This document shows, piece after piece, positions 30,267-58,481 of a stretch of DNA of 64,000 nucleotides. The stretch is taken from positions 6,058,727 to 6,122,726 of the forward strand of contig CM073327.1 of NCBI GenBank assembly GCA_037043015.1, given 5' to 3'. Each line of letters starts with the position of its first letter. Positions within the stretch are counted from its first letter, which is position 1. Source of the stretch: Bryum argenteum. Taxonomy: Eukaryota; Streptophyta; Bryopsida; Bryales; Bryaceae. Below the pieces are notes generated by a model. It made no database searches and was not told the DNA's origin. It saw only the letters and a program-made list of their open reading frames with translations. Made by a program: the position numbers and the translations under genes.

Positions 30267-30276
30267 GCTTTAATCC
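30267..30276 (+). repeat. Target-site duplication, left copy (10 bp)
   Basis: GCTTTAATCC directly abuts the left end of the 28.2-kb element. The identical 10 bp in the same orientation abut the right end at 58,472-58,481. A length of 10 bp is within the 8-11 bp range produced by MULE transposases. Confidence 0.85.
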
Positions 30277-30289
30277 GGGGAAACCACCG

Positions 30290-30330
30290 GTGTGAGCGTT
30301 GAGCGGTGAGCGGTGAGCGGTGAGCGGTAA
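30290..30330 (+). repeat. Left terminal inverted repeat core (41 bp)
   Basis: GTGTGAGCGTTGAGCGG is followed by three TGAGCGG heptamers and TAA. It is the exact reverse complement of 58,418-58,458, and both lie exactly 13 bp inside the element end. Confidence 0.9.
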
Positions 30331-30339
30331 AGTTTGAGC

Positions 30340-31309
30340 GGTAAGAAATAAAAATTTTCAAAGTTAATGGCCCTATTACCATGGAATGGGTGAGTCTGAA
30401 ATTTCAAGATTGTTTTTTTTAGGCATAAAAGTACCCAAAACCGTGGATATTGGTCCTAAATCCAAATATTTGATTGGTATTGGGGTCATACAATATTTCA
30501 TAAATTATCCACATTTACAAGTTTAAATAAACGTTAATTTAATTATGGGCTAGCATCATCATGTATTATCAATACAATTCAAATCATATACAAAATCTAT
30601 ACCCCCACTTGTGGCTTGCCTATAGATAATCAATAAGTTTATTTTGACGATCTTAATACTTGCAGATTAATTAGGGCTGACATCATCAATTTCCTATTAC
30701 ACTTGTCACAATTATATGTAAATGCTTCGGATTATATAATCTAAAATTTATAACTAGAGGTCGTCTTTCGGTCTCTCCTTGTAAGGTGTACAGAAAGACA
30801 TTCACGTGGCATTGTAGTGGTCCGAGTTCGATTCTCCTCGGTCTCGTTTGAGCGTTGCAGTGCGTCCTAAAACAGCTATCCTGAGCTATACAAATACTAG
30901 ACTATAGCCCCATCCGACATTGGCAAGATTCAATCACTCCAATGGAAAAAAAAGAAAAGAAAAAGAAAACAACAACCTTTTAAAACTTTCAGTCTGCATT
31001 GAGTTCAGAACTTAAACATTTAGATATACCTATGCATTGAAATTAGAGTTGAAGAAGTTACATCAAAATTAGGGCTGACGTCACCATTAAATACAAGTAT
31101 GGCTTTATATTGAATTGTAACAAGATACTCAGAGTAATATTTGAAGCACTTTGTGTAGGTTAATCTATAAACGATAATCACGAGAAATAAAAATATAAAA
31201 CCATATATATTAAAAAACGCATATAGATAGTATATAAGTAATAGATCATGGTAAACTACGAATGTATGGCGCTACCATATCCAGTACCAATACGAAAACA
31301 AATCACACA
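30340..31309. other. Left subterminal region of the element, non-coding, with a possible SINE-like B box
   Basis: AT-rich, no gene. At about 30,760-30,850 a tRNA-like segment carries a Pol III B-box core (GAGTTCGATTC) and an upstream GTGGCATTGTAGTGG, but no paired acceptor stem. This suggests a decayed SINE, with low confidence. Confidence 0.4.
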
Positions 31310-33952
31310 CTAGGCTGAAGGTGTGGAACCATTAAAGTGCTGATCACACTGTTCAGCCTCGAAGTCAATAAACTTAAGCACACTATTGCTATAACGTCGA
31401 CGCGGAGTGTCAGACAAAATGGGAGATGGAGCTTGAACAAACTCTTGAGCAAGACGCTCAGCGTACGATGGTAGAGTGAATTTTGATGGAGGGCTATTGT
31501 AGAGATGAGCGTTGCGAGTCAATTGCTCTTTCAGACCTGCGATCCTAAAAGTACAAAGAAAGTCAATATTACCGACTTCTGAGTATGTATTTTTAAATAT
31601 AGAAATAATATAAAAGATGGTATTACGCACCAATGAACTTTCGTGGCTTCTTTACGACCGGTTCGTCAGAGTCATAATCAGCGGGAGGGATTGATTCTCC
31701 ACTCTCTTCATCACCTGGAGGACCATTCTTGTAATCCGCTAGAAGACCATCAAAGATCTCTTCGTCTGGCTCCATAGCAATGAGGTGTCGGTTGGAGCGC
31801 GCGCAAGCAATCACAGATGCACCTACAAAATCAGATACTTACGTTAGAAATGCAAAAAGTATAAACAAATTCCAATAAAGAGTTCACAAAAACATTACCT
31901 GTACTTGCGCTCCAGTCGAAGACTATACCCCCCTCGTCGGTGAGACAATCGACAAAACATTGAATGAAGGAGGGGTCCTTCTCTCGTGAGCCTCGCCAAG
32001 GCGTACCGTCCGGACGGTAACGCAAGGTTTCTTTCACTGCAAAGTTAGAGAGGGAGTCTTCTTCATCAGGTACGATTGCCACACCTACATATTCGTGTGC
32101 CACTTCCCGAGTTTCGAACTTCGGAAAAAAGTCTTTACGAACATAGATTTTGATATGGAAGCAATGAGTCTGCAAAAAACAAGTACAGACAGATTAATAT
32201 AGATGCATAGAAGGCAATAACCATGAATTGTGAAATTGGAAACCAGAATCTAATTCGTACCTCTATCGGTTTGGGTACGGTAGAGGCCATAGGCAGCGGA
32301 TTATATCCCCACCAGTCTCGAACAAGACGAAAACTATAAGTATGCGACTCAGAATCGAGAGCACGCTCGATTTTACGACACTTTGGATGCATCACAAGAA
32401 TGGCTCCAACGTCTGTCAAATGATATGCCGCAAATACAAAGAGGCTCTCAAAGTAGGTTTTGTCTCGCCGGTTCCAGGATGGAATTTCTGTTGGAGACAC
32501 ACCCGGTACGGGCAAGTTCTCGGGAGCATCTGCAAAAATGAGATCAATTCCCGGATGCTTGGGCTGATACTCCATCGCCGAACACGGATACTTACGGTCC
32601 TTGCCAATCTGAGATACAAGTGAAAAATTAGTTAGTCGCTAATAGATTCATTAGTACAAAATGTAATTAGAGATATTATAATTGACAAATGTGTGAAATA
32701 ATACCTTCTTGATGTGCTCAACGATATCAAAGATTTGCGAATCCCAATTTCCTGTCTTCGATGAGTGATGGACCAAATCTCCAATGTTTCCCTTCTCGAG
32801 GTACATTGGTAGAGTCACCGATATTTTAGACGAGGAGCTGCTACCAATATGAGTGGGTTTTGGAAGAGGGCGTCTGGCGAATACCGGTTGACTGCGGCGA
32901 CGTGGTGACTGTTGGGAGTGTTCAACAGTGAATGATTGAGGCGGAGACTCAACATTCGTAAGTCCACCCGTAGAAAGTTGAGTCAGTCTTGCACCGCGAC
33001 GAATGGCATTGTTTGTCGCTCCCTCTGACGCCTGAGTCAAGTCAGCATCTTCGGGCCCTGCAACGTTTTCTGGAGGAGGAGCAATATCTTCGGAATCCTC
33101 GTCAAGTTGAACAACATGCTGTGCAATAGCGTTGCGGCGCTTCCTGTTTCCACGAGACTTGAGCACTGCAGCTGCTGATGAAGAAGAAGAAATTGGTTCA
33201 GACGCGACTGGTAGAATAGATAGGTCGTCATCGTCATCGTCGTCAATCTCCATCGGTTCGCCGCCAGCTGGGTTTGAAGGGAGATTTCGAAGAAGATGCT
33301 TCTCCTCCTTGTGCACGTAGTTGTCGTCGCACTCGAGGAACCATCTACCGGTTGACAAATGAGAGTTTGGAAACCGCTCTTGTTGGGCTGAGGAGAAATA
33401 GCTGCGGGGATCATTTGTGACTGAGACGTCCTCGAACTCCATTGGAATGGAGAACGAAGCTAATGCTCCCTTGGCAACGAGCTCTTGTTTTAAGTACCTT
33501 CAAAAAAAAAAAAAAATTGAATTGTGAAAATTGAACAAATTGTATCGATTTTATTAATATAGAATACGAAATCAGAAACTTACCGGAATAAAAGCCGTTT
33601 AATTGTAACTTTGCCTCCGGTAATCTTTTGAAGATCTGAGCCTTTGCTGAATCTTGGGCTTGCATTCGGACCAAGATAGTTGTTGAATGCCTTGTCCCAT
33701 AAGAGCAATCTCCACTTCTCCACATACGATGTTGGCTTTAGAACAACACTAGACCACTCGATGTTGAGGTTTTCGTTGTCGATCAGGTTTTGCAATTCAC
33801 TTTCAAGTGATTGCTCAAGCTGTGAAAAACGGAAACATGTCAACTATCAAAATAGCAAATAAACACTAACTTTGAAATCATGTATCGAAAAACAATTAAT
33901 TACGGGTGAGTGCATGGTTGAGTGGACCAAAGGCGGCATAGGCTCCCTCCAT
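31310..33952 (-). CDS. Beta-class (permuted) DNA N4/N6-methyltransferase-like protein, about 705 aa
   Basis: Minus-strand exons in transcript order: a likely first exon from ATG 33,952 to about 33,905 (donor uncertain), then 33819-33584, 33497-32705, 32608-32261, 32169-31899, 31822-31631 and 31536-31310 (stop). Junctions from the second exon on are GT-AG and phase-consistent. The N-terminal half is low complexity, with an acidic run of seven aspartates and serine runs. The C-terminal half has the order expected for beta-class amino-methyltransferases: motif IV-like DLIFADAPE at about 32,519-32,545, a helix-rich middle, then DEGGIVFDWSASTG (motif X/I) and ACARSNRHLIAMEPD (motif II region). The catalytic tetrapeptide is DAPE instead of DPPY/W, and motif I is DWSASTG instead of DPFxGSG, so activity is uncertain. 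Membership in the Rossmann methyltransferase fold is likely; the substrate is inferred. Confidence 0.75.
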
Positions 33953-34345
33953 AGAACTCACTAATTTACTGCCATAGTATTAAAAGCCATTGTGAGTTGT
34001 CAGGGCACTCACAGCCGTTGATGAGATCGGGCAAGCTGGACGGTCGAGATGCCCGTACGGGGTGTCAGATCGCGCCGCCGGAGGGGGTATGTGGGCCGTG
34101 GGATTGACCCCAACGGGCCAGATCATCGGAGGGGGGGAGCGCCCGAGGCCGTCGATGGGTTTGCAGGCAATCTCGCGGCAGGGAGACTTCGTCTCTCCCG
34201 CCACCTCCTAGCCGCTTCTTCTCCTCGCCGGAGCTCTTCCGTTGCTCATGATTGTGTATTTTTGGCATGTGTGCTGGACTGTAGTCAAGTGCTTGGATAC
34301 GCTCACGTGGGTATGCGCGACTAGGGTTACTCGAGTGTTTTCAGA

Positions 34346-35880
34346 ACAATGTCGACTACGAGAGAGAGGCCAAAGAGCGATTGTTGGAGGAGCCGGATTG
34401 TAAACCCGTGAGGAAGAAGGTGAAGGTCGAAGGAGGATCATCAGGAGCGTGGGTTGATCCGTTGTATGCTTTGCGACCCCTCGATTACATGGGATAGAGA
34501 AAGCACGCTGAAGCGCGACTACTTTGAAAAGAATTTCGGTTTGTGCAACGAGGGCTTTGCACCGAAGCGGCTTCGATTTGGCGTGCACTTGGACGAGGCA
34601 GACGTAGAGAGCTTATTTGGGCCGAAAGTTAACGCCAATGGGTACCATTATTCGATGTCTCAAACACGTCGCTGCGGAGAGAGTTGAGAAGTGTTGGATG
34701 ATCACCCACCAAATGCACTTTTGTTGTTCCAAACTCAAGGTTGATCAACGTTGCCGAAGCAAAGGGTCACGCGTACGAGACTGTGAAGGGAAAGAAAACA
34801 AACTGGTGCCTCCACGCTGAGTGGACCTGTCGTGAGCAGCTGCGCAGGCACAACTTGGAGAAAGACGCGGCCCAGAAGGAGAAGAAGGCTGGTTCTGCCG
34901 AGAAAAAGCCTGGGGAGAGCGTCACAATTACTGACGGAGGGGAGGGAGGTCCATCGCCCATTGCCTTGCCGATCAGTAGTGGGGTTGGGGGGTTCGAGCA
35001 CAAGGTAGATTACCCCAGGATGACGATTGGGGAGTGGCAAGAGTATCTCTCACTCTTAGAAAGAGAGGCGCCCTCGTTGGAGGCATTGGTGAAGGTTTGT
35101 GCAGAGAGAAGGGACGCTGCGAAGTTGGAGCTCGTCAAGGTGTCGACCCAATCTGAGTATGGGCGGTCTCTTCTTGTTGCTGCAGAGGCTCGACTTCGAT
35201 CGTTGGAGTCCGAGGTCGAAGCAGCTGATGTGAGATTGGCGGCGGTGAAGTCTGCAGCCGCCGAGAACCCTAGTGCTCCAGAGTCGGCAACTGCCCTTGC
35301 AGTGGCTGAGGAAGGGGTTGGAGAGGCGCAGCGCAAGGCTGCTGCTCAGGCAGGGGTGATTGATCAGATGCGAACTCTCTTTGGATCAGGAGAGTCCGGA
35401 TTTGAAGAAGCAAACTCGAAATTTAAGCTTGCTGAAGAAGCTTACACGAGCACATCCTCGAAGCAGGACTTGTGGAGATGCCACAGACTTGTCCTCCTTG
35501 GTCAACTGAAAGCTATGAAAGCAGGTTTAGGGCGCCCAGCTTGCTTTCCAACACCATTACCGTATGTGTATTTTGATTGTGATCAATCTGCTGTAGATTC
35601 AGTAGTGGTTGCAGTATCTGCTTGCCCGTTTTGTGCTAGAGGATTTGATCCCTCTTGGGATTGCAAATTTGCCAGCTGCCGACATGCCTATCATTCCTGG
35701 TGTGCATATTCTCACTTTTCTAGCTCCACAAAGTGTGTGTTGAAGGATTGCAATCAGGAGATGCACGAAGACTGGTGGGCATTGGCAGGGATCAAAAAAC
35801 CCTGTGGAGACAAGGGCAAAGGTGAATTGCAAGGCTTCTGGGAGACATGCGAGAATGCAAGCAACCCCAATCCAGGTTTG
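34346..35880 (+). pseudogene. Broken coiled-coil protein gene with N-terminal Cys finger and C-terminal RING-like zinc finger
   Basis: Three reading-frame pieces on the plus strand join into one protein only if breaks are bridged. A basic piece begins after a possible acceptor at 34,345. It shifts frame at about 34,452 into RCMLCDPSITWDRESTLKRD, meets a stop at about 34,685, and shifts again at about 34,740 into a long open frame to about 35,880. The long frame (about 380 aa) starts LINVAEAKGHAYETVKG, has a charged coiled coil at about 35,030-35,470, and ends in a Cys/His cluster at about 35,620-35,760 (CPFC, CKFASCRHAYHSWC, KCVLKDC). That spacing resembles a RING or related treble-clef finger. 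A frame at 37,094-37,304 with RKSWPVESKRR and PKRKRVRK could be a basic last exon. Breaks could be real decay or uncorrected indels. Confidence 0.6.
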
Positions 35881-35929
35881 TATCGAATTTTTTGGTTGCT
35901 CGAATTTTTTGGTTGCTGTTGGTTTGAAT

Positions 35930-36890
35930 GAATGAGGTAGCTGCTGCTGGATTGAATGAATGAGGTAGCTGCTGCAGGTTCGAATCGAGTTTCTGCTTGT
36001 TAAGGTAGCTGCTACTGCTGGTTTAGTCTCTTTAGGGTTCAGGGTTTAACAATGTGTTTGGATTCAGGCTTTAACAAGCTTTAGGGTTCAGGGTTTAGCA
36101 ATGCCTTACAGTTCATGGTTTAACATGGCTTCAGGGTTCAGGGTTTAAGAGTAGTACTAGTGGGAAATACACAAGGTATTGGTACTAGATGTTCACTAGT
36201 AGTTCAGTGGGACTCAAATTAAGACTGAATCTTCACAAGGTGTCACTAGATGTTTGTAGGAACAACCAAGGCCTCACTAGGTGTCACTGGATTTGAGAAA
36301 GGTGTCCACATAGGTTTCCCATGGATGTTGGTTTTTCATGAGGTGTCACTAGATGTCTGCAGCAGTCATAGAATCCTCACTAGTTCTCACTAGATTTCAC
36401 ATGGATACTAGATTTTCATAAGGTGCCATTGGAATTTCATGAGGTGTCACTAGTTGTCCGCAGCAGTCATAGAATCTTCACTAGTTCTCACTGGATTTTC
36501 ACATGGATATTGGATTTGCATAAGGTGCCACTGGAATTTCATAAGGCGTCACTAGATGTCTGCAGCAATCCATATAACTTTAGAAGTTCTCACTTCATGT
36601 TTGCAGTTGTCCATACAGGTTCAGAAGTTGTCACTAGATGTTTGCAGGTGTCCATTTAGCTTCATAAGTTTTGTCCAGATGTTTGCAGGTGTCCATATAG
36701 TTTCATAGATTCTCTCTAGATGTTTGCAGGTGTCCACATAGCTTGAAGCTGCCAGTAGAGGTTTGGAGGTGTCCATATAGCTTCATAATCTGCCACTAGA
36801 TGTTTGTAGTCATCCATAGGTGTCAATACTTGTTTGCAAAAGTCAATACTTGTTTGCAAAAGTCATTGGGTGTCACTAGGTAGTTATCAG
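35930..36890. repeat. Degenerate tandem repeats downstream of the RING-like gene
   Basis: About 35,930-36,000 holds repeats of gaatgaatgaggtagctgctg. About 36,030-36,150 holds repeats of ttcagggttta type. From about 36,180 to 36,880 the strings tcactagatgtttgcaggtg and tccatatagcttcataagtt recur every 50-60 bp with many changes. No gene is seen. Confidence 0.7.
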
Positions 36891-37729
36891 TTTCAATTTT
36901 TTGGAGATGCCATTGTACAATCCGTGAGCAATTACTAACAGCTCCTTTGGAATCAATTGGAAGCAAATGGTAGTATTGTATGTCACTTTCAATGCTAACG
37001 GTTTCTCTAACTCCAATTGTGATTTTCTTGTATTGAAAGTCACGACTTCTAGGTCATATTCGACGGTGGGGATATGTCCACGTTCCAACACAGCTTAGTC
37101 CATCGATTGGAAGTCTTCGTACCGCCTTGACGCTCACCTTGGAATCAAAGGATGGTCTTCAAAGGGTGCTCAAGATTCTAGGAAGGAAGTCCTGGCCAGT
37201 GGAGAGCAAACGGCGTTTAGAGTCTCCAAATCAAGCGTCCCCAAAGCGTAAGAGGGTGCGTAAGACTGGATCGGAATTTGATAAGGTTCATGCGGGTTCA
37301 CCCTGATTTTGCATGAAAATGCTTCAAAAGAGCATATTGACATGTTGGTCTGAAAATGACGTTATTCAGGTTGCGGCAAAAAGAAAAAAAAAAATGGGAG
37401 CTGCAAAAAAGACTCCCATGGATGCTCATGAGGGACGATGGCCGGTGCGCAAGTTAGTGGACGACTTGCCTCGAGGCAGTGAAGATGATGATGTAATTAG
37501 TAACAGTGTATCAGAGATGACGACTCGGAAGAAGGAGGGGACGTCGATCTGAGATCTTGAAGGGGTGAAGATTCCCCTACACCCAAGAAAACGCAAAAAC
37601 GGGGTAAGTTGAAGAAGGACATGAAGGGGAAGGCTCCGGTGCAAAAGCGAACAAGCATGTCTAGGGTGACACGATCGGGGTCCAAAGAAGAAGCCCAAAT
37701 CTAAGTAGATTCCGCTTTAGTGAACCTTT

Positions 37730-38540
37730 GAAACATTATACCCCTTTTGTCCATACTGTTTTGGACTTGAGCACTTATATATCCCTTTTGTCTATACTTT
37801 GTTACTCAACTACATTGCGAACTTAAATCTTCGCTTGGTTGTAGAGTTGGATTGTTTTGCTCATAATCGAGTTGCAACCGAGGCTTCTTATCGGAAGTTT
37901 TACGAGGCTTATCGTATTGTACATACAGATTGCTATTGAGAAATGAAACTTTGTATACACATTTGCTCTTGTGAAATGAAACTTGGAAGCTTTCGGTTTT
38001 GTAAATGCTTGTGTTTCACGTTACACCCAAATAGATTCTGTATTGGCAAGCTAATCTTGTGAAATGAAACTTGGAAGCTTTCGTTTTGTAAATGCTTATG
38101 TTTCACGTTACACCCAAAGATTCTGTATTGACAAGCTAATTTTGTATACGGAGAGAAGGTAGAAATCAATCCTTCTTAAAGTAAGACATACTCAATTAAC
38201 CCTTAAAGGTCATTTCCTAGATTGACGCACAAGGGTTAAAAGAAGAATAGAGCCAAGTATAAATCCTTTCAATAGTCAAGACATAATGATATATCAAAAT
38301 AAGGGTAAATCCTTTTCAAAAGTCAAGACATAATAAGTAAAAACTTAAGTATAAATCCTTTTTAAAAGTCAAGACATAGTGATGTAATAAAATAAGTGAG
38401 AACTTAAGTATAAATCCATTTCAAAAGTCAAGACATAATGATGTAATAAAATAAGTGAAAACTCAAGTATAAATCCTTCCAAAAGTAAGACATAATGACA
38501 TAAAAAAGAAGAGAAAATTCAAGTATCAATCCTTTCAAGA
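37730..38540. repeat. Two tandem repeat tracts: 88-bp duplication and 59-bp array
   Basis: Copies of an 88-bp unit start at 37,968 and 38,056 (cttgtgaaatgaaacttgga). From about 38,254 to 38,530 a unit of about 59 bp (aagtataaatcctttcaaaa, then gtcaagacataatgatg) is repeated about five to six times. Non-coding. Confidence 0.85.
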
Positions 38541-39008
38541 CATAAATCGCTCATCCAAATGGTGATTTGAAATGTGAAATTCAACTCCAAAATAGTTTTG
38601 GCTAACCCTCAACAATGTATCAACTTCTATGTCAATTTTTTTGGTGCCTTGCCCAATCGCCCCTTGTGTACTTTGTGTCTTTGCAAAAAGGGGTCTTCAT
38701 CATTGTTACTCCATTCCATGTAAATAACTAAGTTGCAAACGCTCATACTAAATTTTAGTGACTCATTTCTCTTTCAAATTGGCTTCATGCAGACTTTTTT
38801 CTAAAAGGAGTACAAATGGTAGTTGTAATACAAAACTTAACATAGTGACTCTAAGTGAAGAGCTAAGTGACTCTAAGTGAAGTGAAGTTCTAAGTATCCA
38901 TTTTGAATCTATATTGGAGGGTCCCGCACGAGGCGAGACCCAAAAAAATGGTGCCCTGCCATAACAAAAGTCTTAGGCAGGGCATGATGGAGATAACTGC
39001 AAATACAG

Positions 39009-42000
39009 TTACACAACATACTCCATAATTGCTTCCTCAACACTGGAAGGTAACTTGTATACAGGCTCATTTCCTGTAACACGGTGGTCAGCAATGACCA
39101 TTGGAAATTTGGTAGCTCTTATGTTAATCACATGCAAGTGAGCCTTTTGGGATTTTTTCAGCCATATGTAAGTATCAACCCCAGTCCCATACTTCTGATA
39201 GTAACGGCCCTGAATCACTGAATCTCCGGGTTCAAAATGCTCGCCCCATGGGCATGCAAATGCCTTCCTGCATGTATACATCTTCTTTGTACAAAGCAGA
39301 AGATAGAAATCAACGCCTTCTTCGTTATCGGTCCAAAGAGAGACAAAAGTTGTCCCCAAGCTCGATGTCGAAGCAAAATATGCTCCATTTAATCCAAATT
39401 CATCCCAATCATCTTCTTTAAACTCGGCACTTACAATAGCCCGAACATATCCTGGTAAACTAACTATTAGAACCTCTACCTCCCAGTCCCCAGCCCAAGC
39501 CCTGTTCTCACAATCCCCCCAATTACATTGAATGCAAGAAGCACAGAAGCATGCCAATTGCCGCTTCAACAACTTGTTGACATCCATGGAACCTACTGAC
39601 CGAACACAGTGCAAATCCCTGCAGCCAACTATGGGGTCACACTCATACTCAGTCTCCCTGTCAACATCACCAACTCGGACATGCCAAAAGGTTCGTCTTA
39701 CCGGCCTTCTATCACCATATGACGTCTTTGGCCTTTCACTGAGCTTGGATCGCAAGAACTCTACGACAGTCTCAGCGTCCTGCAGACGAGGTCCATTCAC
39801 ATCGAGTTGTGTAGTTCGAATGTATCTCTTCATTACAGCTCCTGCCCCGTCATGGGGGCCTTTTCCGTGACTGAGATCCAAAAAGCTCCACATGCAATTA
39901 CAACCCTCGCAATTTCAGGTATCGACCGACAAAATACCATGGAATTCGGCTTTTAAATTGGCCAACACGACCATCGGACCATCCGGTGGTTTTAGGAGTA
40001 AAACCGCCATCCACCAAACTATCCCAATGCAACATCAAACAATGTTGAACAAAGTAGCTATCATGTTTCTTATCATCGCTAATATAGAAATGATACTCCA
40101 TTATGTTCCTTGTACTTTCATCATTAGGGTCGGTGTGTAGGATTCTCACCCAAGTTATATGCACTAGGATCGTGATCGGTAGTCGTGCCAATGCATTGAT
40201 TGGACTTCGTTTTGAACCTTGAAAGAATAGTTCTCGGCAAAATCAAGTACGAGACAATAGTATTGGTGGAAAGTTGGCAAGACAGGTTACAATTGTTCAT
40301 CTTCCCATTTTGCAACAAACGTATGTCGTACAAAAGCTTGCAATTTCGATTTTCAGATAACTTACCACCTCAAAGAAGAAGTGTCTTTGTATACCGAGTC
40401 AATTTCTTCTTTTTTCTACTCCTTTCTCGAGTTGTGATCGTCTCCATTGCATACCGCTTCCATTTGACTTTGCAAAACCGGAGCTCCCATCTTCTTCAAT
40501 GGGGCACACAGGAGGAAATCTACACCACAACTATCACAATTTCCAAAAATACAATCCCTTGCGTGCCATTGGCTTTGGTCGCTTTTTGGGGCACAAAATG
40601 GAATCGGCCATGGCCGTCACTCCCGAAAAACGAAGACCCTTCAAAGACAAAGAATTACCATCCTCCTTCACAGACTCACACACCTCACACTCGCAATCAC
40701 ATACATTCTTAGAATGCAACCCAGATTTTGCTCGCATGTAATTAAATCCCACCCTAAGCTCTTCCATCTCTACGTGATAAATGCAACAACACACATTTCT
40801 ATCTTTCGGTTTTTTTACAAAATATGGTGAAAGGAATCAAAGATTCGCTTACCCACAATTACCTCAGGATGTGCAGCTTGAAAACGCAGGTAAAACTCCA
40901 TCTGCATACAACTAACACTGCAGAAGTCATAGTGACTCCCTAGAAGTACCTACCTACTTACTACTACTCCATCTACATACAACTAAAGTTGCTGAAGTCA
41001 TATGGACTCCCTAGAAGTACCTACGTACTTACTACTACTCCACCTACTTCAACAAGGTCAATGCCACCTCTAATAGTCATTCTTTGTAACACCACATGTC
41101 ACTCATAATTACACGGGACTCACATGAAACTCCTATGTAGCTCTAGCGTACTCCATTTTGAAACATACAAGTACATTTTTTTACATTCCACTTGCATATA
41201 TGTTCACCAAATTCCAATCTAGTACACTAGTGTTCAAGCAAACTCCATTCTAGTGCATATTAGTTCAATCCATTTCCTTCTACTACATATAAGTACAAAC
41301 ACTTCCTACTCTAGTATATATAGGTTCACCCATACCGTATTGACTATCAATTCAACTCCTATAAAGACCATAGGGTTCTCTTGGAGTTCCATGAGATATG
41401 ATCATTCACACATATACCCCATTTGAAGCCATCGTAACATATGAAATCTCCTTGCTATTAAATTTTGACCCTAATTATCACTATAAAGACTACAACCGCC
41501 CTTGTTCTCTAAACAACAATCATGTCTAAACCCTAAAGACAACAATGGAGAAAATTAGCAAGCATAGTGAAGGATCGGAAGAATTCATGCCTGTGATTCC
41601 AACAGTATTGAGTGTGATGTGATTCGTAAACACCGGTGCAATCCATCACGCACAACCTCCTTGCGATTTGGATGGGCCTCGTTTACGCATTCCACCATGC
41701 AATGACGATGTTGCGCACAAAAGATCGCTGTAGCATCACTCCTCCGTTTTCGAACAGAGTGTCCACGATCTCCGCCATTGCTTGTCATTGTAGCCCGCCG
41801 TTGTACGACCTTGATCACGTTACGGTGATGAACCTTCAAAGACGGGCATGCACGCCTTGCGAACCACTCGCCCCGAACTCACAACGGCCGAGGAGGATTG
41901 CATGCTTTGCTACCAATTGTGCATTAGTCTTTGCGCTCTTCACCTCCGACAAGGACTGAGCTAAACCATTCACAATCGCATCATGGGTTTTTGCCTGCTC

Positions 42001-42384
42001 TGACAACCTTCTTGAAATCGGCAAGGAAACTTTGGTAACATGACTAGACCACACCGCCGCCGCAAGATGACTTCCTTGTGGTGCCTCATGCGGAGTTTTC
42101 GCCAAAGTAGACGTCACACAATTCAAAATCAACGCTGCATCGCGGCGCACCTCTCGCCGATTTAGCACCTCACGCGACACACCGCATCGCTCTTCAACTC
42201 TACGCTCGTTTTCAGCGTACAACAATTCCTCTGCTTGCAACTGAGCGTTTGCCTCTTGCCTGCGACGCCTACACTGACGTTGCCGCTCTTTATCACTTTC
42301 TCTAATTGCTGCCAGTCTTGCTCTCTCAGCAGGACCAGGGCGTATAATACCAGACCGCCTTGCTACCGCTCTTCCATTCCCCAT
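39009..42384 (-). pseudogene. Broken RNase H-like (DDE-type) transposase-related gene
   Basis: Minus-strand pieces line up in order as one protein of a family I recall from mosses and other eukaryotes as uncharacterised transposon proteins. The N-terminal coiled-coil piece is 42,384-41,836 (MGNGRAVARRSG start, RREVRRDAALILNCVTSTLA). The next piece is about 41,830-41,585 (VVQRRATMTSNGG, RKRRSDATAIF). After a 650-bp intron or insertion comes about 40,925-40,540 (FYLRFQAAHPE, CCCIYHVEMEELR). The core is about 40,330-39,900, with VLDFAENYSFKVQNEVQSMHW and then YHFYISDDKKHDSYFVQHCL and WSDG. An open 294-aa tail at 39,893-39,009 carries LDLSHGKGPHDGAGAVMKR. Breaks include an extra base at about 39,905, a lost base at about 40,175, stops near 40,290 and 40,430, and shifts near 40,830 and 41,840. 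The first two acidic positions (DFAENY, WSDG) remain. It could be a second core gene of the element or an older nested insertion. Confidence 0.7.
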
Positions 42385-42589
42385 CAAAAACAGACTCACA
42401 CACCTCACACTGCCACACGGACACCCTAAACCCTTCCACACCAAGAACAACACCAACACAGACCTACAGCAACAAAAACGACAAGATGACGAAGTCCTTC
42501 CAGCAATCAAGGCAGTAAGAGAGGAAAAAAACATGAACCCCAGTGACAGCAAGCGAACAAGCGAGTCTAAATCGTACACCGTCCCTATT

Positions 42590-45307: not shown

Positions 45308-45438
45308 CTAGCAATCCAGAAACCAGATTCAACACACCAAAGACTGGATAAGAATGTGTCAAAAAAACAATGTGGTAAAAATTGATAAAAAACATCGGCT
45401 TTTAATTATGTGTATGATAATTTCATCCGACAATACAT

Positions 45439-48400: not shown

Positions 48401-51400
48401 CAACGGTGCTGGAGTGGCAATCCCCGAATCCCAGCACAAGTTGCAGCGAACGAAAAGCATAAAGTGCACCACAGCAAGCTAAAAAATGCAAATTCGAGCA
48501 ACTCCCTTCAGACCTTCGTCCACGAATGTCTGACAGCATCTCGGCCAAACCCACACCATGTGCACCCCCAGAACAAACCCATAGTGCAAGCCAGCCATCA
48601 GGCTTCATTTCAAGGTGGAGTTTAGCATACAAAAACCAGCCTCAGGCTTCAATTCAAGCAGGAGTACTGCATCCAAAAACCAGCCTCAGGCCCGCCACAA
48701 GGATGTGAGAAGCCTTCATCGGCACACGAGGATCAGGAGTACAGCATAATAAAAACAAGCCTCAGGCCCGCCACGAGCATGTGAGCAGCCTTCATCGGCA
48801 CAGGAGGATGGGCCTCAACGGGGCTGAAGTGGCAATCCCCGAATCCCAACACAAGTTGCAGCGAACGAAAAGCATAAAGTGCACCACAGCAAGCTAAAAA
48901 ATGCAAATTCGAGCAACTCCCTTCAGACCTTCGTCCACGAATGTCTGAGAGCATCTGGGCCAAACCCACACCAAGTGCACTCCAAAACCAATCCATAGTG
49001 CAAGACAGCGATCCCGCTTCAATTCGAGGTGGAGTTCAAAGATACAAAAACCAAATTCAAGATTCCATTCGAGCATGAGAACAGGATAGATAAAACAGCC
49101 TCAGAACCGCCACGGGTATGTGAGCAGCCTTCATCGGCATATACGTGCAGGATTACAGCATAATAACCCAAGCCTGAGGCCCGCCACGAGGATGTGAGAA
49201 GCCTTCATCGGCACAGGAGGATCAGGAGTACAGCATTATAAAAACCAGCCTCAGGCCCGCCACGAGTATGTGAGCAGCCTTCATCGGCACAGGAGGATGG
49301 GCCTCAACGGTGCTGGAGTGGCAATCCCCGAATCCCAACACAAGTTGCAGCGAACGAAAAGCATAAAGTGCACAACAGCAAGCAAAAACATGCAAATCCG
49401 AGCAACTCCCTTCAGACCTTCGTCCACGAATGTCTGACAGCATCTGGTCCAAACCCACACCAAGTGCACCCCCGGAACAAACCCATAGTGCAAGCCAGCC
49501 ATCAGGCTTCATTTCAAGGTGAAGTTTAGCTTACAAAAACCAGCCTCAGGCTTCAATTCAAGCAGGAGTATCGCATACAAAACCAAACTCGGGCCCACCA
49601 CAAGGATGTGAGAAGCCTTCATCGGTACACGAGGATCGTGAGTACAAAGATAATAAAAACCGACCTCGGGCCCGCCACGGGTATGTGAGCGACCTTCATC
49701 GGCATATACGTGCGGGATTACAAAGATAATAACCCAAGCCTCAGGCCCGCCACGAGGATGTGAGAAGCCTTCATCGGCACAGGAGGAGCAGGAGTACAGC
49801 ATTATAAAAACCAGCCTCAGGCCCGCCACGAGTATGTGAGCAGCCTTCATCGGCACAGGAGGATGGGCCTCAACGCGGTCTTTGGGTGGCAATCCCCGAA
49901 TCCCAAAGACAAGTTGCGTGACGAAAAGCATAAAGTGCACCACAAAGAAGCTAAAAATGCAAATTCGAGCAACTCCCTTCAGACCTTCGTCCACGAATGT
50001 CTGACAGCATCTCGGCCAAACCCACACCATGTGCACCCCCAGAACAAACCCATAGTGCAAGCCAGCCATCAGGCTTCATTTCAAGGTGGAGTTTAGCATA
50101 CAAAAACCAGCCTCAGGCTTCAATTCAAGCAGGAGTACTGCATCCAAAAACCAGCCTCAGGCCCGCCACAAGGATGTGAGAAGCCTTCATCGGCACACGA
50201 GGATCAGGAGTACAGCATAATAAAAACAAGCCTCAGGCCCGCCACGAGCATGTGAGCAGCCTTCATCGGCACAGGAGGATGGGCCTCAACGGGGCTGGAG
50301 TGGCAATCCCCGAATCCCAACACAAGTTGCAGCGATCGAAAAGCATAAAGTGCACAACAGCAAGCAAAAACATGCAAATCCGAGCAACTCCCTTCAGACC
50401 TTCGTCCACGAATGTCTGACAGCATCTGGTCCAAACCCACACCAAGTGCACCCCCGGAACAAACCCATAGTGCAAGCCAGCCATCAGGCTTCATTTCAAG
50501 GTGAAGTTTAGCTTACAAAAACCAGCCTCAGGCTTCATTTCAAGGTGAAGTTTAGCTTACAAAAACCAGCCTCAGGCTTCAATTCAAGCAGGAGTACTGC
50601 ATACAAAAACCAGCCTCAGGCCCACCACAAGGATGTGAGAAGCCTTCATCGGCACACGAGAATCAGGAGTACAGCATAATAAAAACCAGCCTCAGGCCCG
50701 CCACGAGGATTTGAGAAGCCTTCATCGGCACAGGAGGAGCAGGAGTTCAGCATTATAAAAACCAGCCTCGGACCCGGATGTGATCAGCCTTCATCAGCAC
50801 AGGAGGATGGGCCAGGGCGACCGAAGAGGGAGCTGGAGTGGCACTCCCCGAATCCCAGCACAAGTTCGAGTGAACGAAGAGCATAAAGTGCACAACAGCA
50901 AGTCCAAAAATGCAAATTCGAGCGCCTCCCTTCTGACCTTCGTCCACGAAGGTCTGAGAGCATCTGGGCCAAACCCACACCAAATGCACTCCCAAAACGA
51001 AACCAAAGTGCAAGCCAGCCATCAGGGTTCAATTCGTGGTGGAGTTCAGCATACATAAACCAGCCTCAAGATTCCAGTCGACCATGAGAACAGCATAAAT
51101 ATTACAGCCTCAGAACCGCCACGTACATGTGAGCAGCCTTCATCGGCATATACGTGCAGGAGTACAGCATAAAAACCCAAGCCTCAGGCCCGCCACAAGG
51201 ATGTGAGCAGCCTTCACCGGCTTTGGAGGAGCAGGAGTACAGCATTATAAAAACCAGCCTCAGACCCGGATGTGAGCAGCCTTCATCGGCACAGGAGCAT
51301 GGAACAGAGCGACCGAAGAGGGATCTGGAGTGGCACTACCCGAATCGCAGCACAAGATCCAGCGGATGAAATGGATAAAAAGCATACTAGCAAGTCAAAA

Positions 51401-53638
51401 ACTGGCATATGCAGACACCTCCGAATTGTGCACTTCCCGAAATTTCATCACGATCAACAACACTTCTTATTGGTTGAACAAGGTCTACTGCCCAATCGAT
51501 CTGGTGCAAGAAGCAAGAGTTAGGGTTTACATTCAATCTGTTGTAGGAATTGGGTTTGGTCAGTACATACCAGGAATTTCTTGGAGTACCACACCTCCAA
51601 CTCTGCCCTGCTTTTCATTGCTTCACCAGGAGCATGCGACTTGTAGAATTCCTTGTAAAATTCGTCGAAAAGACTCGATTCTGAAGACTGGGAACTCACA
51701 TTGTCCAAAGCTTCTTCGACGTGCTCACTGCCTCCTTCCACTGCCACCTCTATCTGCACAAGCTCCGCCATATTGTCTTCTTCCTGCAACATCTTGACAG
51801 CAATGGTGTGCAACTTCTTCAAAAACCTCCCTACAAGGACTTGACAGTGTCAAATGTACTCCTCTCATCTTTCCAGGACGTTCTTTTGCTCCTACTAAAA
51901 ATAATTGCCTTTCGAGTTCATCGGCGGATCCTGTTTTGGCCTATTCAAAAATAGCACAAACGTTTATTGTAATCGAATCTCCAAATTAAAGACGGAGACT
52001 TTAATTTGAAAAAAAAAGCGGCGACCCCTTGCGAAATGAAGGGCCGCCAGAGAAGGGGCAGCGCGCTGCTAGGTCGGCGTTCGGCGCTGCGAGGAGGCAG
52101 GTCGGCGTCGGTGCCGCTCAGGTCGGCGTCGGTGCCGCTCAGGTCGGCGTCGGTCCGCTTAGGACCGGCTGTTACCCGGTCCGCCGGGCCCAGCCCCGGC
52201 TGCTACCCGGTTCGCCGGGCCAGCTAGCTGGTACGCGGTTCGCCGGGCCAGCGTTGCTGGTACCCGGTTCGCCGGGCCAGCGTTGCTGGTACCCGGTTCA
52301 CCGCGCCAGCCTTGCTGGTACCCGGTTCGCCGGGCCAGCCTTGCTGGTACCCGGTTCGCCGGGTCAGCCTTGCTGGTACCCGGTTCGCCGGGCCTTGCCG
52401 GTCCCATTCCTATCCTTACCCGGCAAGACCGTCCTAGCAGCTATACCAGGCCGTTGCATGGACCATTCTGCGTGCCGGTTCTCAACTGTGTTGTAGCAAT
52501 TCATGTGCTTGTGACCTCGGGTCTCGGCGTTTGACTAGGATAATTTCATCAACAATAAATATGTTCTCCTTACAAAGTCACGGGAATCGTTATGAATATG
52601 ATTTATATTCACGAAAATTGAACAAACATATATTAAATAGTTGTGTAAATTTTTCTTTCTCAAATACTATTAAATCGTAATCTTCATTTGCGTTTTGTAA
52701 AAACATATCTCATCTCTAGAGGTGAATACTAAAATATGCCCATACTCTTTCATGCCACTCTGGAATTATGACAGGTCATTTACCTGCTCACTAATGATTG
52801 CCTATTTTAACATACACATGCGAATCAAGTCACACTTGATAATACTATACCATGATACAATCATGGCTCTATATATGTCATGGAAATCTATATCGTCAAA
52901 CTTTGAAACTACATACCGAAGAATGTACTCTCGTTGATTGTATACTTAATCAATCCTAAATCCTCCCAATAAACCAGGAAGTAAGGTTTTTCATGTACCT
53001 CCTCTAACTCTTCTGCACTTGTCTCAAATCCATCGGCTACATCATTCTCTGTCTTCTGATCTGTGATGCCTTCTGCGCTCTCGGCCATATCATTGACTCT
53101 TTTCTCCTCAAACATTAGAGCTTCTTCTCCAGATTCATTGACTTCCTCTTCCGATTCTTTGCGAGCCTGAGGACAATCCATGCTGGTGTTAATATAAAAA
53201 CGAATTCAATAATTTTTAGTCACTTTGTAATATCAACATAACTGTAATACATTACATAATTACCTCATTTGTAGAATCTTCACCTCCATCGTCCTCTCCA
53301 TCCACGCATTCAGTCTGGCTAGATGTCCTGAACTGCCTTCTTCGCCCTTCCTCCTCCTCGTCTTCAGCTTCCTCTGTCCCGAAACTCTCCGGCACACTAT
53401 CGAGGTTGAGCGATCGCATTTTCACAGTCCGCCTGAACGGCGGTAGCACATCATCGTCAATCAGTATGTCATACGCGTCTGGCTCCTGATCATCGCCGCT
53501 ACAGCTTCTTCCATCGCGCTTCCGCAAAGCACTCCGCCTCTGTGCTTTGGAATTAGTAAACTTCGTACCTCCTCTCCGCTTCTTCTTTCTCTGCCCTATC
53601 TCCTTTCCTCTCTCACTACCGCTAGCAGATTCGTCCAT
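45439..53638 (-). CDS. Acidic protein of unknown function, 389 aa, four exons, with a 5.8-kb satellite-bearing intron
   Basis: Exons in transcript order: 53638-53264, 53166-52946, 51826-51571 and 45756-45439 (stop). Phases 0, 2 and 0 and the sum of 1,170 nt fit one frame, which supports joining exons across the repeat array. The N-terminus is Lys/Arg-rich (RKKKRRGGTKFTNSK), a likely nuclear signal, followed by long acidic runs (EEAEDEEEEGRRR). The middle has VHEKPYFLVYWEDLGLIK; exon 3 has DEFYKEFYKSHAPGEAMKSR; the end is basic (RLKPRRSPRLARKLQSF). No domain is recognised. It ends 131 bp upstream of the ParB-like ATG on the same strand. Its start faces the transposase gene across about 1.1 kb. 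The acceptor of exon 3 is weak, so its edge is less sure. Confidence 0.6.
45905..51360. repeat. 5.4-kb satellite array, unit about 415 bp with 1.47-kb higher-order repeats, inside an intron
   Basis: The landmark aggaggatgggcc starts at 46,098, 46,513, 46,919, 47,334, 47,822, 48,387, 48,802, 49,291, 49,857, 50,273 and 50,801, giving spacings of about 415, 406, 415, 488, 565, 415, 489, 566, 416 and 528. The 488/565/415 pattern repeats, so 47,334-48,801 and 48,802-50,272 are two copies of a 1,468-1,471-bp higher-order repeat. Units also contain a shorter sub-repeat of about 70 bp (aaaaaccagcctcaggc ... gagaagccttcatcggcac). Long minus-strand frames such as those reading GWLALWVCSGGALGVGL are by-products of the repeat. 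Confidence 0.9.
52075..52405. repeat. GC-rich minisatellites (21 bp and about 30 bp)
   Basis: Three copies of a 21-bp unit (gtcggcgtcggtgccgctca) at about 52,085-52,160 are followed by about eight copies of a roughly 30-bp unit (tacccggttcgccgggccag) at 52,167-52,405. The unit holds the imperfect palindrome CCCGGTTCGCCGGG. It lies in the second intron of the acidic-protein gene and contrasts sharply with the AT-rich surroundings. Confidence 0.9.
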
Positions 53639-54782
53639 ACTGCTTTCACTAAGATAACTTATCGCACGTACAACGTAACGAATCCAAGTCTTGCCACTGC
53701 AAATGAAGAGGTCGAACTATGACTTTGAACTCCACTATATAGGTTCCCTGCGCGACTGAGAAACCCTAATCTGTCACCGTGTATTCCCTAAGACACCGCT
53801 ATGACCGTGTCTCACAATTCAAAATAAGTAAACTTATAATGTCAGCTAATATCTACCTGAATCTCTGACAGTGACGGCCGCCGTCACTTTACATCTAACA
53901 CAAACTTCTTTTTTCGACGGCTCTTAAATTTTTAATCCTAACTACTTAATGGCATTTTGTCCGTCCAGATAATGTAGTTATTATTGGTTCTGCGCATTTA
54001 AATCATCATGCTCACAATTCGGAGTATCCGATATCTGTATGTCTTATTATAATAATTACGTCTAATAAGTATTCTTTACCTATGCCAACACCCTACACCA
54101 AATTCTCGTATTTGAACATTCGAAATGCACCTTAGTCTCTCTCTCTCTTCGCACTTGTTGATGTTGTTTTCTCGCGTATGTCTATCATGGCATCCTCTAC
54201 TCTCTTACTTGCCGCTGCAGACGTCATTGCGATCAGATCTGAAGACTTAAGTCCTCCCATTTGCATTCCTCCGGGAGTGGGTGGAGTGGCTGAAGTCACT
54301 CCGTCTTGGCTAGCAATTCGATTCGGGTTTGATGAGTCCTCTCTTTGGTTAGAGAAACATGTCATGGATCCAAACACCAATCTTGTCCTATACTCCGTGC
54401 TTGTCGAACCAGTCGACCTAGACAGTAATTGTAGAATGTATAAGCTCGGCCCGGACAAGATCGCTTTGTTCGGCATGACAGAAGTCTGTCATGAACGCCT
54501 CCACCGTCCTCCTCACTCCTCGTAGTTCTTCTACCATCTCCACTTTGTTGTTCCGATTCTTAGTCGTGTCAAGGTCGAACCCGACTCAAGTCCGAATCGA
54601 TATTTCGATTCATCCGAAGATGAAAGAAAAGTGTCCGAAAGCGGTCTCGCCGATCGTCATCGAATCTGCCTCCCCCTTCCTCTGATTCTGAACACAATCT
54701 CAGAACCAACCGCTACTCTATTCCAGCATCCAATGTCGTAAAACCCAAAAACATTCTTTCCTCGCTCCGTAGACTAGGTAGC
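53639..54782. promoter_or_regulatory. Divergent intergenic region between the acidic-protein gene and the transposase gene
   Basis: About 1.1 kb separates the two divergent start codons, so promoters for both probably lie here. Short frames such as 54,178-54,525 (+) show no recognisable domain and could be leader exons of the transposase gene. Confidence 0.45.
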
Positions 54783-57700
54783 ATGTCTCGCAACAAAACT
54801 ATACTCAAAAAAATCGATTTCCATTCCATTCGTACTTATAACGTCTCTTTCCTGCCTCCCACTTTCAATGGTGATGTCTTGTACATTCTTCCTCCTGTTC
54901 TACCAACTACTGCTGTCAAGGTAGCAAAGTCTATGGAAGGGATGGACAAAAGATACGATGGTCATGTGTGGACCAGGACAATGACTACTAACATCAGTAA
55001 CAACCTCGGATTGTCTTTCCGCTACTCTAACTGTGTAGGTCATCTTCAATGCCACAATGGGAACTGCGGCTTCTTACTACGTCCCGACCGCAGAGCAAAG
55101 GTGAATGAGGTGGAGTTCGAGGGCTTTACCAAGGACCCCTTCTCGGTCGGCCAAGCACCTCCTCCTTCTTCAACACTGCTCTGTAAGATCTGCAAAGAAC
55201 CTCCCGTTTGTGTTGCTGTTTGCCATTCTAAAATCTTTTACGTGTTCGGAGAGGAGAGTCAAGAGCGAGTGTGTGTGCATATCGGTACCCACGAACATCC
55301 TGTCAAAGTCGGGGACTACAGATGTGCACGTAAAATCATTGATGAGCTAATAGAGGAGCATGTAGAACGTAACCCACAAGCAACCACGTCCAAAATAGTC
55401 ATGGAGGCTAGCAAGGACTTACTTGGAAACTTACTTCTCCGTGAAGAAGGTGACCCTATAACCTCCAAGCTCACCCTGCAGGAACTAGAACCTATCTTCG
55501 ATCAGTGTAAAGAGCTGAACTCTCCCAGCGTGAGGAATCGTATTACCACTTTTAAGCACTTGCGCAGATACGGTGTTCTTGATGGGATCACCAAGCTTCG
55601 AGGCCTCAGCAACTGGGCTTACATCCAACGTAACCAATTCCCGGGCCAAGGACATGAAAGTGACAAAGTGTTCATTTTCAAGATGTCCGAGGTCGGTCCC
55701 GGAAGCGGTGTTGACCTTGTTCGTCGTATGCAGCCTACAGGCGACCTGTCCCACGCGTGGATGATGTTCGACCATGTCAAGCGTGTCAAGAACTGGACCA
55801 CCATGGCATGCCACGTGTATGACTCTAAAATCTGCCGAATTCTAACTATTGCATGCTGTGATTTCCAGTCTGAAGATGGAGAAGCTCAAATCGTCTTCTG
55901 GAAGAACCTAAACCACGTCATGGGCAGAAACGGAGTGGAGGCGCCGCAGTTTCAAGGGTTCATGGCCGACAGTGCGCAGGCCAACTGGAATGCTGTGCGG
56001 ATCATTTACGGCTCCGGTGACCCTAAAGTCCCTATGGAAGGCCGCGAGCGGACTTGCTACTTCCATTGGACGCAATCCCTAGAGAAACACACCAAGCAAT
56101 ACATCGTGCACGAGCTGCAGGATCAACATCGACATCTTTGTAAGCAATACAAAGATGCACGCACCATGGCTGAGGCGGAGACAAGATACTGGGCGATCCG
56201 AGCGTGGTGGGCGTCGGCGCAGGCCACCTCCGAAGTTGGATTATGTCACCTGGAACACTGGCTTGCATTCTGGCACTTCCGATACAGGCAATGGGGTGGC
56301 TTCATGGAACTAGTGAGTCCGCAACCTCTGTAGCAATTATGTACCGTCCTTTTATGTCAAGTAAATCCGTAACTTTTATTTACTTTTTTATCATAGATTT
56401 TTTCTTTTTTACGATTGCATTTATAACATCTAAAAATATTTGAAATTTTAAAAATTCTATTTTTAGACCAGACCTTCGGTGACGAAAGTCTAACCTGCTC
56501 TGGATATTGAGATCAATTTTTCTCTTATTAAGTCAAATGTCTTTACACCTTGCAGGAAAATAAATATTCCGCAGAGGAGCTCGCGGAGATGCCTTCATGT
56601 AACCTTGCAGAATCTATCCATAACAAATGGTTGCAAGCGTCCGGCAACAAGGGTGGGGACTTGTACGTTGCTGCTGTCGATGATTACGTTCGCGCTTTCC
56701 TCCAAGTGGTGGGTTACCACGACTTCAACGGAGGTGGCAAGGGTGGTAGTGGACCAACATCCGAAGAACTATTACTCCGTGTTGCTCATAAAGCTCGACG
56801 AACCGGCGATCCATCTAGCCTCACAAGGGCAGTTTCTGACTTTCCAGGAGCTGAAAAGTTTTGTACCCGAGACGCCCACCTTGAGGGGGCTGAGGTGTTC
56901 GGTTCCAAGAAACGTAAGGCTGATGTTCCAATTGGAGCTGATGATGAAACGCACAGACCTGACACCGTGAGCTACTCACGTCCCCGAATTGGGAGAAGGG
57001 TTACCCGAGCCCTTGCTGAAAATCTGAGTACTATCCATGAAGAGGATGAACTTGACGAGCCACCGGCATTACCATTTACTTTTGCTACACCTAGTATTGT
57101 ACGTGTGACCGCGGTTCAGGAGACTAAAGTAGACGAGAGGTTGTGGCACATTGCCCGTTTGAGGGAGAATTCCTCCAAGGCTTGTTGGGGTATCATGCGA
57201 AAGAGTAAGAAAAGATGTGACTCACGAATTATTCAGAAGGGGAAGGCCACCGCAGCTCCAACATACACCGGAGTATGGCAACGCCCTCAAGAGGGGCCAA
57301 GAAAAATTGATCAGTTCTTTTTTTGTGCGGATGATATTGACAGGTGTGTGAAGGGTCATCGTCGCAAGTGGATTGATCCATTCTCTCTAAGCGAGGATAG
57401 ACCCCCTATTCCTTCGATATGGCCTGTTAAGATAGGAACTAACCTTACACGTGATGAAATGGAGGCGTTAGAGAATGCGGGCTTCCGACTACCCCAAAAA
57501 GAACAGCTTCCTACGCAACGCACTTTCAATAATGCTGCCCCACCAAGAGACTTGTCCCATATTCCAGTTCCGGAGAAGCCGGACGTGTTCCCTAGGTCAA
57601 GAAGATCGAAGAACATGAAACGCATTCCAGCAATGACTTCAAAGCACATGAAGATTATTGAGTCTGCCACCTCAATGCAGGCCAAAATTCTGAAGGTGAC

Positions 57701-57995
57701 CATGATCCCGCAGCCTGGTTTTGGATGTATCGTAGACTTGGAGTCGGATTCGGATGCAGTTTATAGACTTTCAATTAGTAAATTCCCGGATTGCTCATGC
57801 CCAGTGTTCAAGAAGACAATTTCTTCGCTAGGGCGGAGAGATCCATACCGACCGTGCAAGCACCTATACTTCATCACGGTATTGGTTTGCAAATTTGATC
57901 CGGATGCGGACCTCTTCATCCACGCGGCCACTCTTAGTTTCAACGAGGTGAAGAAGATTCTGGAGGGAGGAATCCTAGACCATGCTACAGATTAG
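54783..57995 (+). CDS. MULE-type transposase with DDE core and SWIM zinc finger, 989 aa, two exons
   Basis: Exons 54783-56312 and 56556-57995 join GT-AG in phase 0 and give 989 aa with no stop. An N-terminal Cys-rich segment (CVGHLQCHNGNCGF, LLCKICKEPP) is probably the DNA-binding finger. The catalytic core has first-Asp region WMMFDHVKRVKNW (Asp at about 330), second Asp at about 396 in GFMADSAQANWNAVR, and the CYFHW motif (His at about 428), followed by the charged helix expected to hold the Glu. A SWIM finger C-S-C...C-K-H lies at residues 923, 925, 944 and 946. MULE transposases bind the inverted repeats and cut and rejoin the element, leaving 8-11 bp duplications, which matches the 10 bp seen. 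The gene is 476 bp from the right end and the frame is intact, so the element may be recent or active. Confidence 0.9.
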
Positions 57996-58417
57996 AATGC
58001 CTTATATCTCTTCATCTACATACGCTATATGTTAGTCTTATGATTGTGTTCTTCACACTTTATGTGAGATTTTTTCTCAACTTATTAAATATAATTATAC
58101 GAGTATCTACATGTAGAGCAAGCCTTGCCAATTTTGTCTAACTTGGAGTACTAATCACTTAGTAATATTACCTTAGAAACCACTTTACATTTACGAATTG
58201 TGATGTACTCTCGAGTTTTGTAGCTCAAGTCTAACCAAATTCAAGGAACTTAAGCCTTACTTTCCACGGGTTTGGGTCACAAAATCCACGGTTATAAGTC
58301 AAGAATATTCGAATATTCCCGGGAATATTCCAAAATCATTCGCAAATTTTTTCAAAAACCCTATTTTTAGAAATATTTTTACTAAAAATAAAAACTCCCC
58401 CCTAAAAATTCAGAATC

Positions 58418-58458
58418 TTACCGCTCACCGCTCACCGCTCACCGCTCAACGCTCACAC
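58418..58458 (-). repeat. Right terminal inverted repeat core (41 bp)
   Basis: Exact reverse complement of 30,290-30,330, ending 13 bp inside the right element end. Read inward it is GTGTGAGCGTTGAGCGG followed by TGAGCGG heptamers. Confidence 0.9.
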
Positions 58459-58471
58459 GGTAGCAACGTCC

Positions 58472-58481
58472 GCTTTAATCC
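58472..58481 (+). repeat. Target-site duplication, right copy (10 bp)
   Basis: GCTTTAATCC, identical to 30,267-30,276 and immediately outside the right terminus. Confidence 0.85.

Follow-up and report, generated by a model that had tools for sequence, protein, structure and literature searches.

A Mutator-like transposon family in the moss Bryum argenteum with paired unlike ends and a ParB/DNA methyltransferase-like accessory gene

Mutator-like elements (MULEs) generate target site duplications of 8-11 bp and carry terminal inverted repeats (TIRs) of 14-500 bp (PMC6446971), and according to a review the Pack-MULEs analysed by Jiang et al. 2004 all stay within 7 kb (PMC6431247). Arthropod MULEs range from 1.4 to 10.0 kb. 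Larger transposons with additional genes include Sola1-1_Ec32 of the brown alga Ectocarpus, an element of 21.5 kb with a protein of 1104 residues that combines ParB and N4C/N6A methyltransferase domains and is encoded on the strand opposite to the transposase, and similar ParB-methyltransferase proteins are reported in transposons of green and red algae, as are nested insertions in giant elements (PMC12477816). The subject of this study is a 28.2-kb element of the moss Bryum argenteum, located in a stretch of 64,000 nucleotides of contig CM073327.1 (hereafter the window, whose positions serve as coordinates). It is a complete insertion of the Mutator superfamily, and it is one member of a family-wide arrangement. 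With a 10-bp duplication and a 41-bp TIR within the published ranges, and a DDE transposase with a zinc-binding N-terminus and a putative SWIM-like finger, it resembles known MULEs. It differs from them in size, since family members are mostly 11-19 kb and this copy is 28 kb as compared to the limits of 7 and 10.0 kb given above, and in its asymmetric outer ends, an inverted repeat that starts 13 bp inside, a ParB/methyltransferase-like gene and, in some copies, an open reading frame (ORF) with an ADD-like domain. Taken together, we consider it likely that this MULE family has paired ends of two types, A and B, and a selected ParB/methyltransferase-like gene, with the mechanism and the cassette exchange proposed below.

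The element is bounded by an exact 10-bp direct repeat, GCTTTAATCC, and by a 41-bp inverted repeat whose arms (30290-30330 and 58418-58458) are 100% complementary and lie exactly 13 bp inside each duplication, both as reported in the preliminary description of this DNA. The ends, called perfect there, do not however form a perfect inverted repeat, because their outer 13 bp differ, reading GGGGAAACCACCG at the A end and GGACGTTGCTACC at the B end; both continue into GTGTGAGCG and then into GTGAGCG heptads. A 17-bp core of the ends has 178 forward and 194 reverse matches in the 258.8-Mb genome (25 contigs) versus none on either strand for the reversed pattern, and hence is not a product of chance. 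Exact 44-bp ends occur 94 times as A and 86 times as B, with controls at 0. Neighbouring exact ends at most 35 kb apart form 44 pairs, nine of which are not convergent; the 35 convergent ones consist of 32 A-B and three A-A pairs, whereas convergent A-B pairs averaged 5.6 and never exceeded 15 when label and strand were shuffled 2000 times. Other paired ends, whose absence from the genome would have counted against a genuine element, are thus present, although not mostly at the 20-40 kb initially suggested: the span is 10.8-18.8 kb in 26 of the 32 A-B pairs, and the window copy ranks fifth in length. The density of exact ends is 0.70 per Mb genome-wide and, among six contigs computed, 1.11 on C1, 1.19 on C6 and 0.16 on C8.

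For comparison of copies, 26 convergent pairs of 7-29 kb, all on contig C1, were chosen by eye from the first 100 places of the core motif, with exclusion of wider ones. Retrieval of 17 of them (nine were not retrieved) gave, with the window copy, a set of 18 elements, in which the others carry numbers in the range E1-E25. One A and one B end are found in 18 of 18, with deviations at one or two bases in a few of them, and 17 have a target duplication, which is identical over 10 bp in 13 elements, 11 bp long in E8 and matched at 9 of 10 bases in E1, E19 and E25. E4 is the sole element without a duplication and may be a composite of unrelated ends or a decayed copy. E4 also lends some weight to the possibility that the 28.2-kb window copy is itself a random joining of two family ends that do not belong together. 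For the window copy this explanation was rejected in view of the exact duplication, the one A and one B end and an interior gene order shared with other copies, and it is largely refuted, with a negligible probability remaining. The ends of E4 lie 24.9 kb apart, with the first 0.1 kb of its A end about 9.5 kb away from the remainder.

The transposase gene adjoins the B end. Its exon 2 holds a GCM/WRKY-type zinc-binding region and a DDE core of Mutator/IS256-type RNase H fold with acidic residues D383 (codon at 55770) and D449 (codon at 55968), and the E of NLAESIHN in exon 3 (codon at 56610) is likely the catalytic glutamate, by analogy to IS256 and MULE transposases, where we take this residue to have that role. 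The best structural match of the core is ISCth4, a prokaryotic insertion sequence of the IS256 family without accessory genes, from which the present family differs in having them. The C-terminal CxC..CxH pattern was found by reading and its match to SWIM PF04434 is weak (expectation value, E, 0.55). Searches yielded 267 relatives among proteins of genomes and metagenomes; among the 120 that were listed, identity reaches 77% and a precomputed Pfam domain is absent throughout. Among 42 members of the transposase alignment, namely the window sequence and 41 of these 120, no Pfam MULE-domain match was obtained at E 0.1 and a single one to PF00872 at E 0.034, and a sequence search of solved structures returned two chance-level matches with this alignment and none with that of the accessory protein. 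The ratio of nonsynonymous to synonymous substitution rates (dN/dS) against the window copy is 0.11-0.37 in 12 of 13 elements, the remaining one being E25, whose value of 0.76 comes with 75 frame-changing indels and denotes a decayed or misaligned copy. The transposase had been described as open and intact; this holds for the core and the C-terminal exon, but not for the N-terminal part, which contains a stop and frame changes. A giant-virus origin was tried and rejected, since of 132 pattern hits that the transposase alignment produced in viral contigs, none was confirmed.

The gene that sets this element apart, which went unrecognised in the preliminary description, encodes a ParB/DNA methyltransferase-like protein. 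Its introns measure 76-96 bp apart from intron 4, whose length of 9,820 bp is due to a nested transposon. A stretch around GNHRVTA resembles ParB/Srx; the only library match is a weak one to a PHROG ParB-like partition protein (E 0.026), with no significant match in Pfam or NCBIfam. The methyltransferase-like domain matches phrog_3008, a DNA methyltransferase of the phage families, at E 3.1e-5, with 6 of 6 members of the alignment A3 matching, and PF01555 at E 0.0058, below its cut-off, these library matches covering the motif-I side only. Motif IV precedes motif I, which we take to be the class beta order. The motif-IV position reads FADAPEN in place of DPPY, and the motif-I position reads FDWSASTG. 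For a relative from the moss Ceratodon purpureus, the predicted structure had a pLDDT (predicted local distance difference test) of 28 and gave no usable fold. The gene resembles that of Sola1-1_Ec32, as the latter is described, in near-equal protein size (1104 vs 1160 residues), in apparent domain pairing and in its position on the strand opposite to the transposase, although the Ectocarpus element belongs to another transposase superfamily and to a brown alga, and in the moss DPPY is lost and the copies look mosaic.

This likeness raises the alternative that, as has been suggested for the proteins of algal transposons, the accessory protein retains N4C or N6A DNA methyltransferase activity and uses it to mark the element that encodes it. 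The apparently shared domain pairing, the opposite-strand arrangement and the conservation of the motif-I region speak in its favour. However, DPPY is found in none of 17 copies, window included, in which the position reads DAPE (10), DVPE (four), HAPE (E8), DAPK (E25) or is a gap (E10), nor in three Ceratodon purpureus relatives (50-53% identity across 74-75% of the query region), which have DAPE in 3 of 3, and motif I is SASTG or a near variant. An active methyltransferase is therefore not claimed, and we consider this alternative unlikely.

The pattern of substitutions nevertheless indicates that copies of this gene evolve under purifying selection. It was matched in 17 of the 18 elements, window included, E21 giving no match, and dN/dS against the window copy is 0.12-0.26 across the 16 matching elements; in all dN/dS comparisons of this study bases inserted relative to the window copy were dropped, gapped codons were excluded, and stops were excluded but counted. 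E2, E4, E7 and E10 could be compared over 624-992 of 1161 codons and contain 22-46 frame-changing indels. Compared with the window copy, 15 of the 16 others are interrupted by stops or frame-changing indels, including E5 and E8, which have no stop but two and three such indels, respectively; E23 is free of both, and the open copies are thus those of the window and E23. Genome-wide, at least 40 matches to exon 1 are present (40 scored of 495 candidates). These data bear on two further explanations. Mutator elements often capture host fragments (PMC6431247), and the ADD and RING domains are host-like, so that the internal genes might be passively captured fragments as in Pack-MULEs; yet the large gene is complete with its 10 exons, open in two copies, constrained and matched in all but one of the 18 elements compared, and the RING-like ORF is part of the nested transposon, which makes such an origin very improbable. 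Likewise, large size and apparently exchangeable cassettes would suit a Starship-like cargo element whose accessory genes benefit the host and not the element. No gene with an obvious advantage for the host was recognised, the domains that can be identified resemble chromatin- or DNA-binding ones and nearly all other accessory gene copies are damaged as described above, and we regard this explanation as highly improbable.

The length of 28.2 kb of the window copy comes from insertion of the nested 9.7-kb transposon into intron 4 and from a satellite array. The nested transposon has inverted ends of about 30 bp and is flanked by a 4-bp duplication, TTAC (33900-33903 and 43636-43639). In 12 of 17 other elements the match to window positions 30277-33880 resumes 7-86 bp later from 43636 on; in the divergent E2, E4, E7 and E10 no match spans the junction and the spacing is too short for 9.7 kb, and E21 does not contain the junction region. 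The ends of the nested transposon occur 17 times in the genome and form seven full pairs of about 9.7 kb, and an exact 4-bp duplication is present in 7 of 7 copies read, window copy included. Among the other 17 elements, E22 and E25 alone gave matches to the satellite array. The preliminary description of a complete 28.2-kb MULE is accordingly upheld as to a single complete insertion of the superfamily, whereas the transposon proper, without the nested 9.7 kb and the satellite of about 5.4 kb, comprises about 13 kb. As to the gene-rich interior described there, with at least six genes or gene remnants, three of the longer ORFs (34702-35931, 39009-39914 and 41836-42600), a RING-like one and two more, lie inside the nested transposon. 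The RING-like ORF, a weak Pfam match, has ten copies of 92-100% identity, window included, and no Pfam transposase match was obtained for the ORFs of the nested transposon that were tested. Its 4-bp duplication and the resemblance of a motif make the class Sola a tentative lead for this insertion.

Comparison of the copies also reveals unequal divergence of the different parts. Synonymous divergence (dS) from the window copy is 0.20-0.25 for the transposase in 12 of 13 elements, and for the accessory gene it extends from 0.22 to about 2, values above about 1.4 being saturated. Nucleotide identity of E10 to the window copy falls from 83% in the initial 0.7 kb at the A end to 66-67% in the middle, and is 87% in the final 5.1 kb. 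E5, E8, E22 and E24, which make up four of the 17 other copies, have no transposase match and contain at its place the ADD-like ORF, cut short by a stop in E24. In E5, the only copy so analysed, residues 21-134 match the ATRX ADD domain, a type built of GATA-like and PHD-like zinc fingers (phmmer, E 9.6e-16), and the Pfam ADD_ATRX match is below cut-off (E 7.7e-4). As dS of the ADD ORFs relative to E5 is only 0.05-0.06, with dN/dS of 0.39-0.76, constraint on them cannot be claimed. Despite near-identical ADD ORFs, the accessory genes of E22 and E5 are 88% identical. Thus, from these sequence comparisons, the family looks mosaic, with divergent versions of the accessory gene on one transposase chassis and cassettes that would be exchanged by recombination.

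The mechanism that we favour as likely links these features. The transposase would bind the heptad arrays and pair one A with one B end, leading to insertion with 10-bp duplications, and the ADD-type copies may be mobilised in trans. The ParB/methyltransferase-like protein, with its DPPY changed to DAPE or DVPE, would bind the DNA of its own element without the usual methylation, and may shield the element from silencing or assist transposition, a role that we infer from sequence features; its gene would be selected as part of the element, with cassettes swapping between copies by recombination. VANDALs are MULEs that are not known to have TIRs. In Arabidopsis they encode VANC anti-silencing proteins (PMC10398659), and they resemble the moss family in that a transposon specifies a second, element-specific protein, which in the case of VANC acts against silencing; the moss elements differ from them in the presence of TIRs. 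More tentatively, the family could represent a modular mobile platform in which one transposase chassis with obligate A-B ends is combined with exchanged, divergent chromatin cassettes of its own. These would be an ADD histone reader and an inactivated ParB-methyltransferase that serves as a DNA-binding factor specific to the element, and a moss MULE would thus carry and swap its own anti-silencing machinery. This joint proposal is a possibility to which we assign clearly less than even chances.

Smaller ORFs of the element show graded constraint. The first exon of the small accessory gene is constrained (dN/dS 0.11-0.27 in 14 other elements); it has no stop in 12 of these 14 and neither a stop nor a frame-changing indel in 10. 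Two other ORFs are listed in the table, and partial matches were excluded from dN/dS for E21 (small gene) and E1 (small basic ORF). No non-coding RNA family reached the gathering threshold in the window. Outside the element, a 69-bp tandem repeat array occupies 13552-14422, and a 277-nt repeat occurs in both flanks (10421-10697, 20286-20562 and 59818-60094, 78-86% identical to the first copy), whose copies are probably fragments of another repeat family. Flanking ORFs resemble an ALG9-type mannosyltransferase and a receptor kinase, as named by reading only.

Table. Positions of features of the Bryum argenteum element in the 64,000-nucleotide window
Feature	Position	Strand	Remarks
Target site duplication, left copy	30267..30276	.	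GCTTTAATCC
A end	30277..30330	+	GGGGAAACCACCG and 41-bp inverted repeat; about 5 heptads GTGAGCG, period 7 at 30292-30328
ParB/DNA methyltransferase-like gene	31310..45307	-	10 exons, 1160 codons without stop; splice model by reading
Its exons 1-5	45307-44505, 44419-44224, 44139-43942, 43858-43640, 33819-33584	-	all introns GT-AG
Its exons 6-10	33497-32705, 32608-32261, 32169-31899, 31822-31631, 31536-31310	-	all introns GT-AG
ParB/Srx-like stretch	44505..44941	-	residues 123-268, with YVYEGNHRVTAW; motif by reading
Class-beta DNA methyltransferase-like domain	31631..32608	-	exons 7-9, which hold the domain (residues 832-1054)
Nested transposon	33904..43635	.	9,732 bp, ends GGGTGNNTGCATGGTTGASTGGACCAA; in intron 4 of the ParB/methyltransferase-like gene, outside MULE proper
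Small basic ORF (RRSPRLAR)	45439..45774	-	hardly constrained; dN/dS 0.34-0.94, 11 elements
Satellite array	46034..51404	.	unit about 415 bp, about 5.4 kb
ORF kept between copies	51520..51849	-	weakly constrained; dN/dS 0.36-0.68, 10 elements
GC-rich 29-bp tandem repeat	52168..52394	.	
Small accessory gene, first exon	53264..53638	-	125 codons, basic then acidic
Transposase, N-terminal part	54178..54700	+	frame-disrupted; stop and frame changes relative to E18
Transposase, exon 2	54624..56312	+	open part up to donor; exon begins further upstream
Transposase, exon 3	56556..57995	+	to stop; NLAESIHN, SWIM-like CxC..CxH finger
B end	58418..58471	-	GGACGTTGCTACC and same 41-bp repeat read on minus strand
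Target site duplication, right copy	58472..58481	.	GCTTTAATCC

In the literature searched, which covered titles and the beginnings of abstracts with most subscription papers outside, neither a MULE with a ParB-methyltransferase gene nor a moss case is announced. Mosses can be transformed by gene targeting, and the role of the accessory protein is therefore testable in them. At the level of the single copy, its structure illustrates how nesting and satellites can account for the size of a 'giant' transposon, and how a 9.7-kb insertion can be accommodated in an intron with the coding sequence still open. In algae, proteins of the ParB-methyltransferase type have been put forward as a novel category of accessory protein in transposons (PMC12477816). 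The occurrence of such a gene in moss MULEs suggests that the same partner is taken up by transposon superfamilies with no relation to one another. Since this gene is open and selected without its catalytic motif, DNA binding and not methylation may be what is selected.

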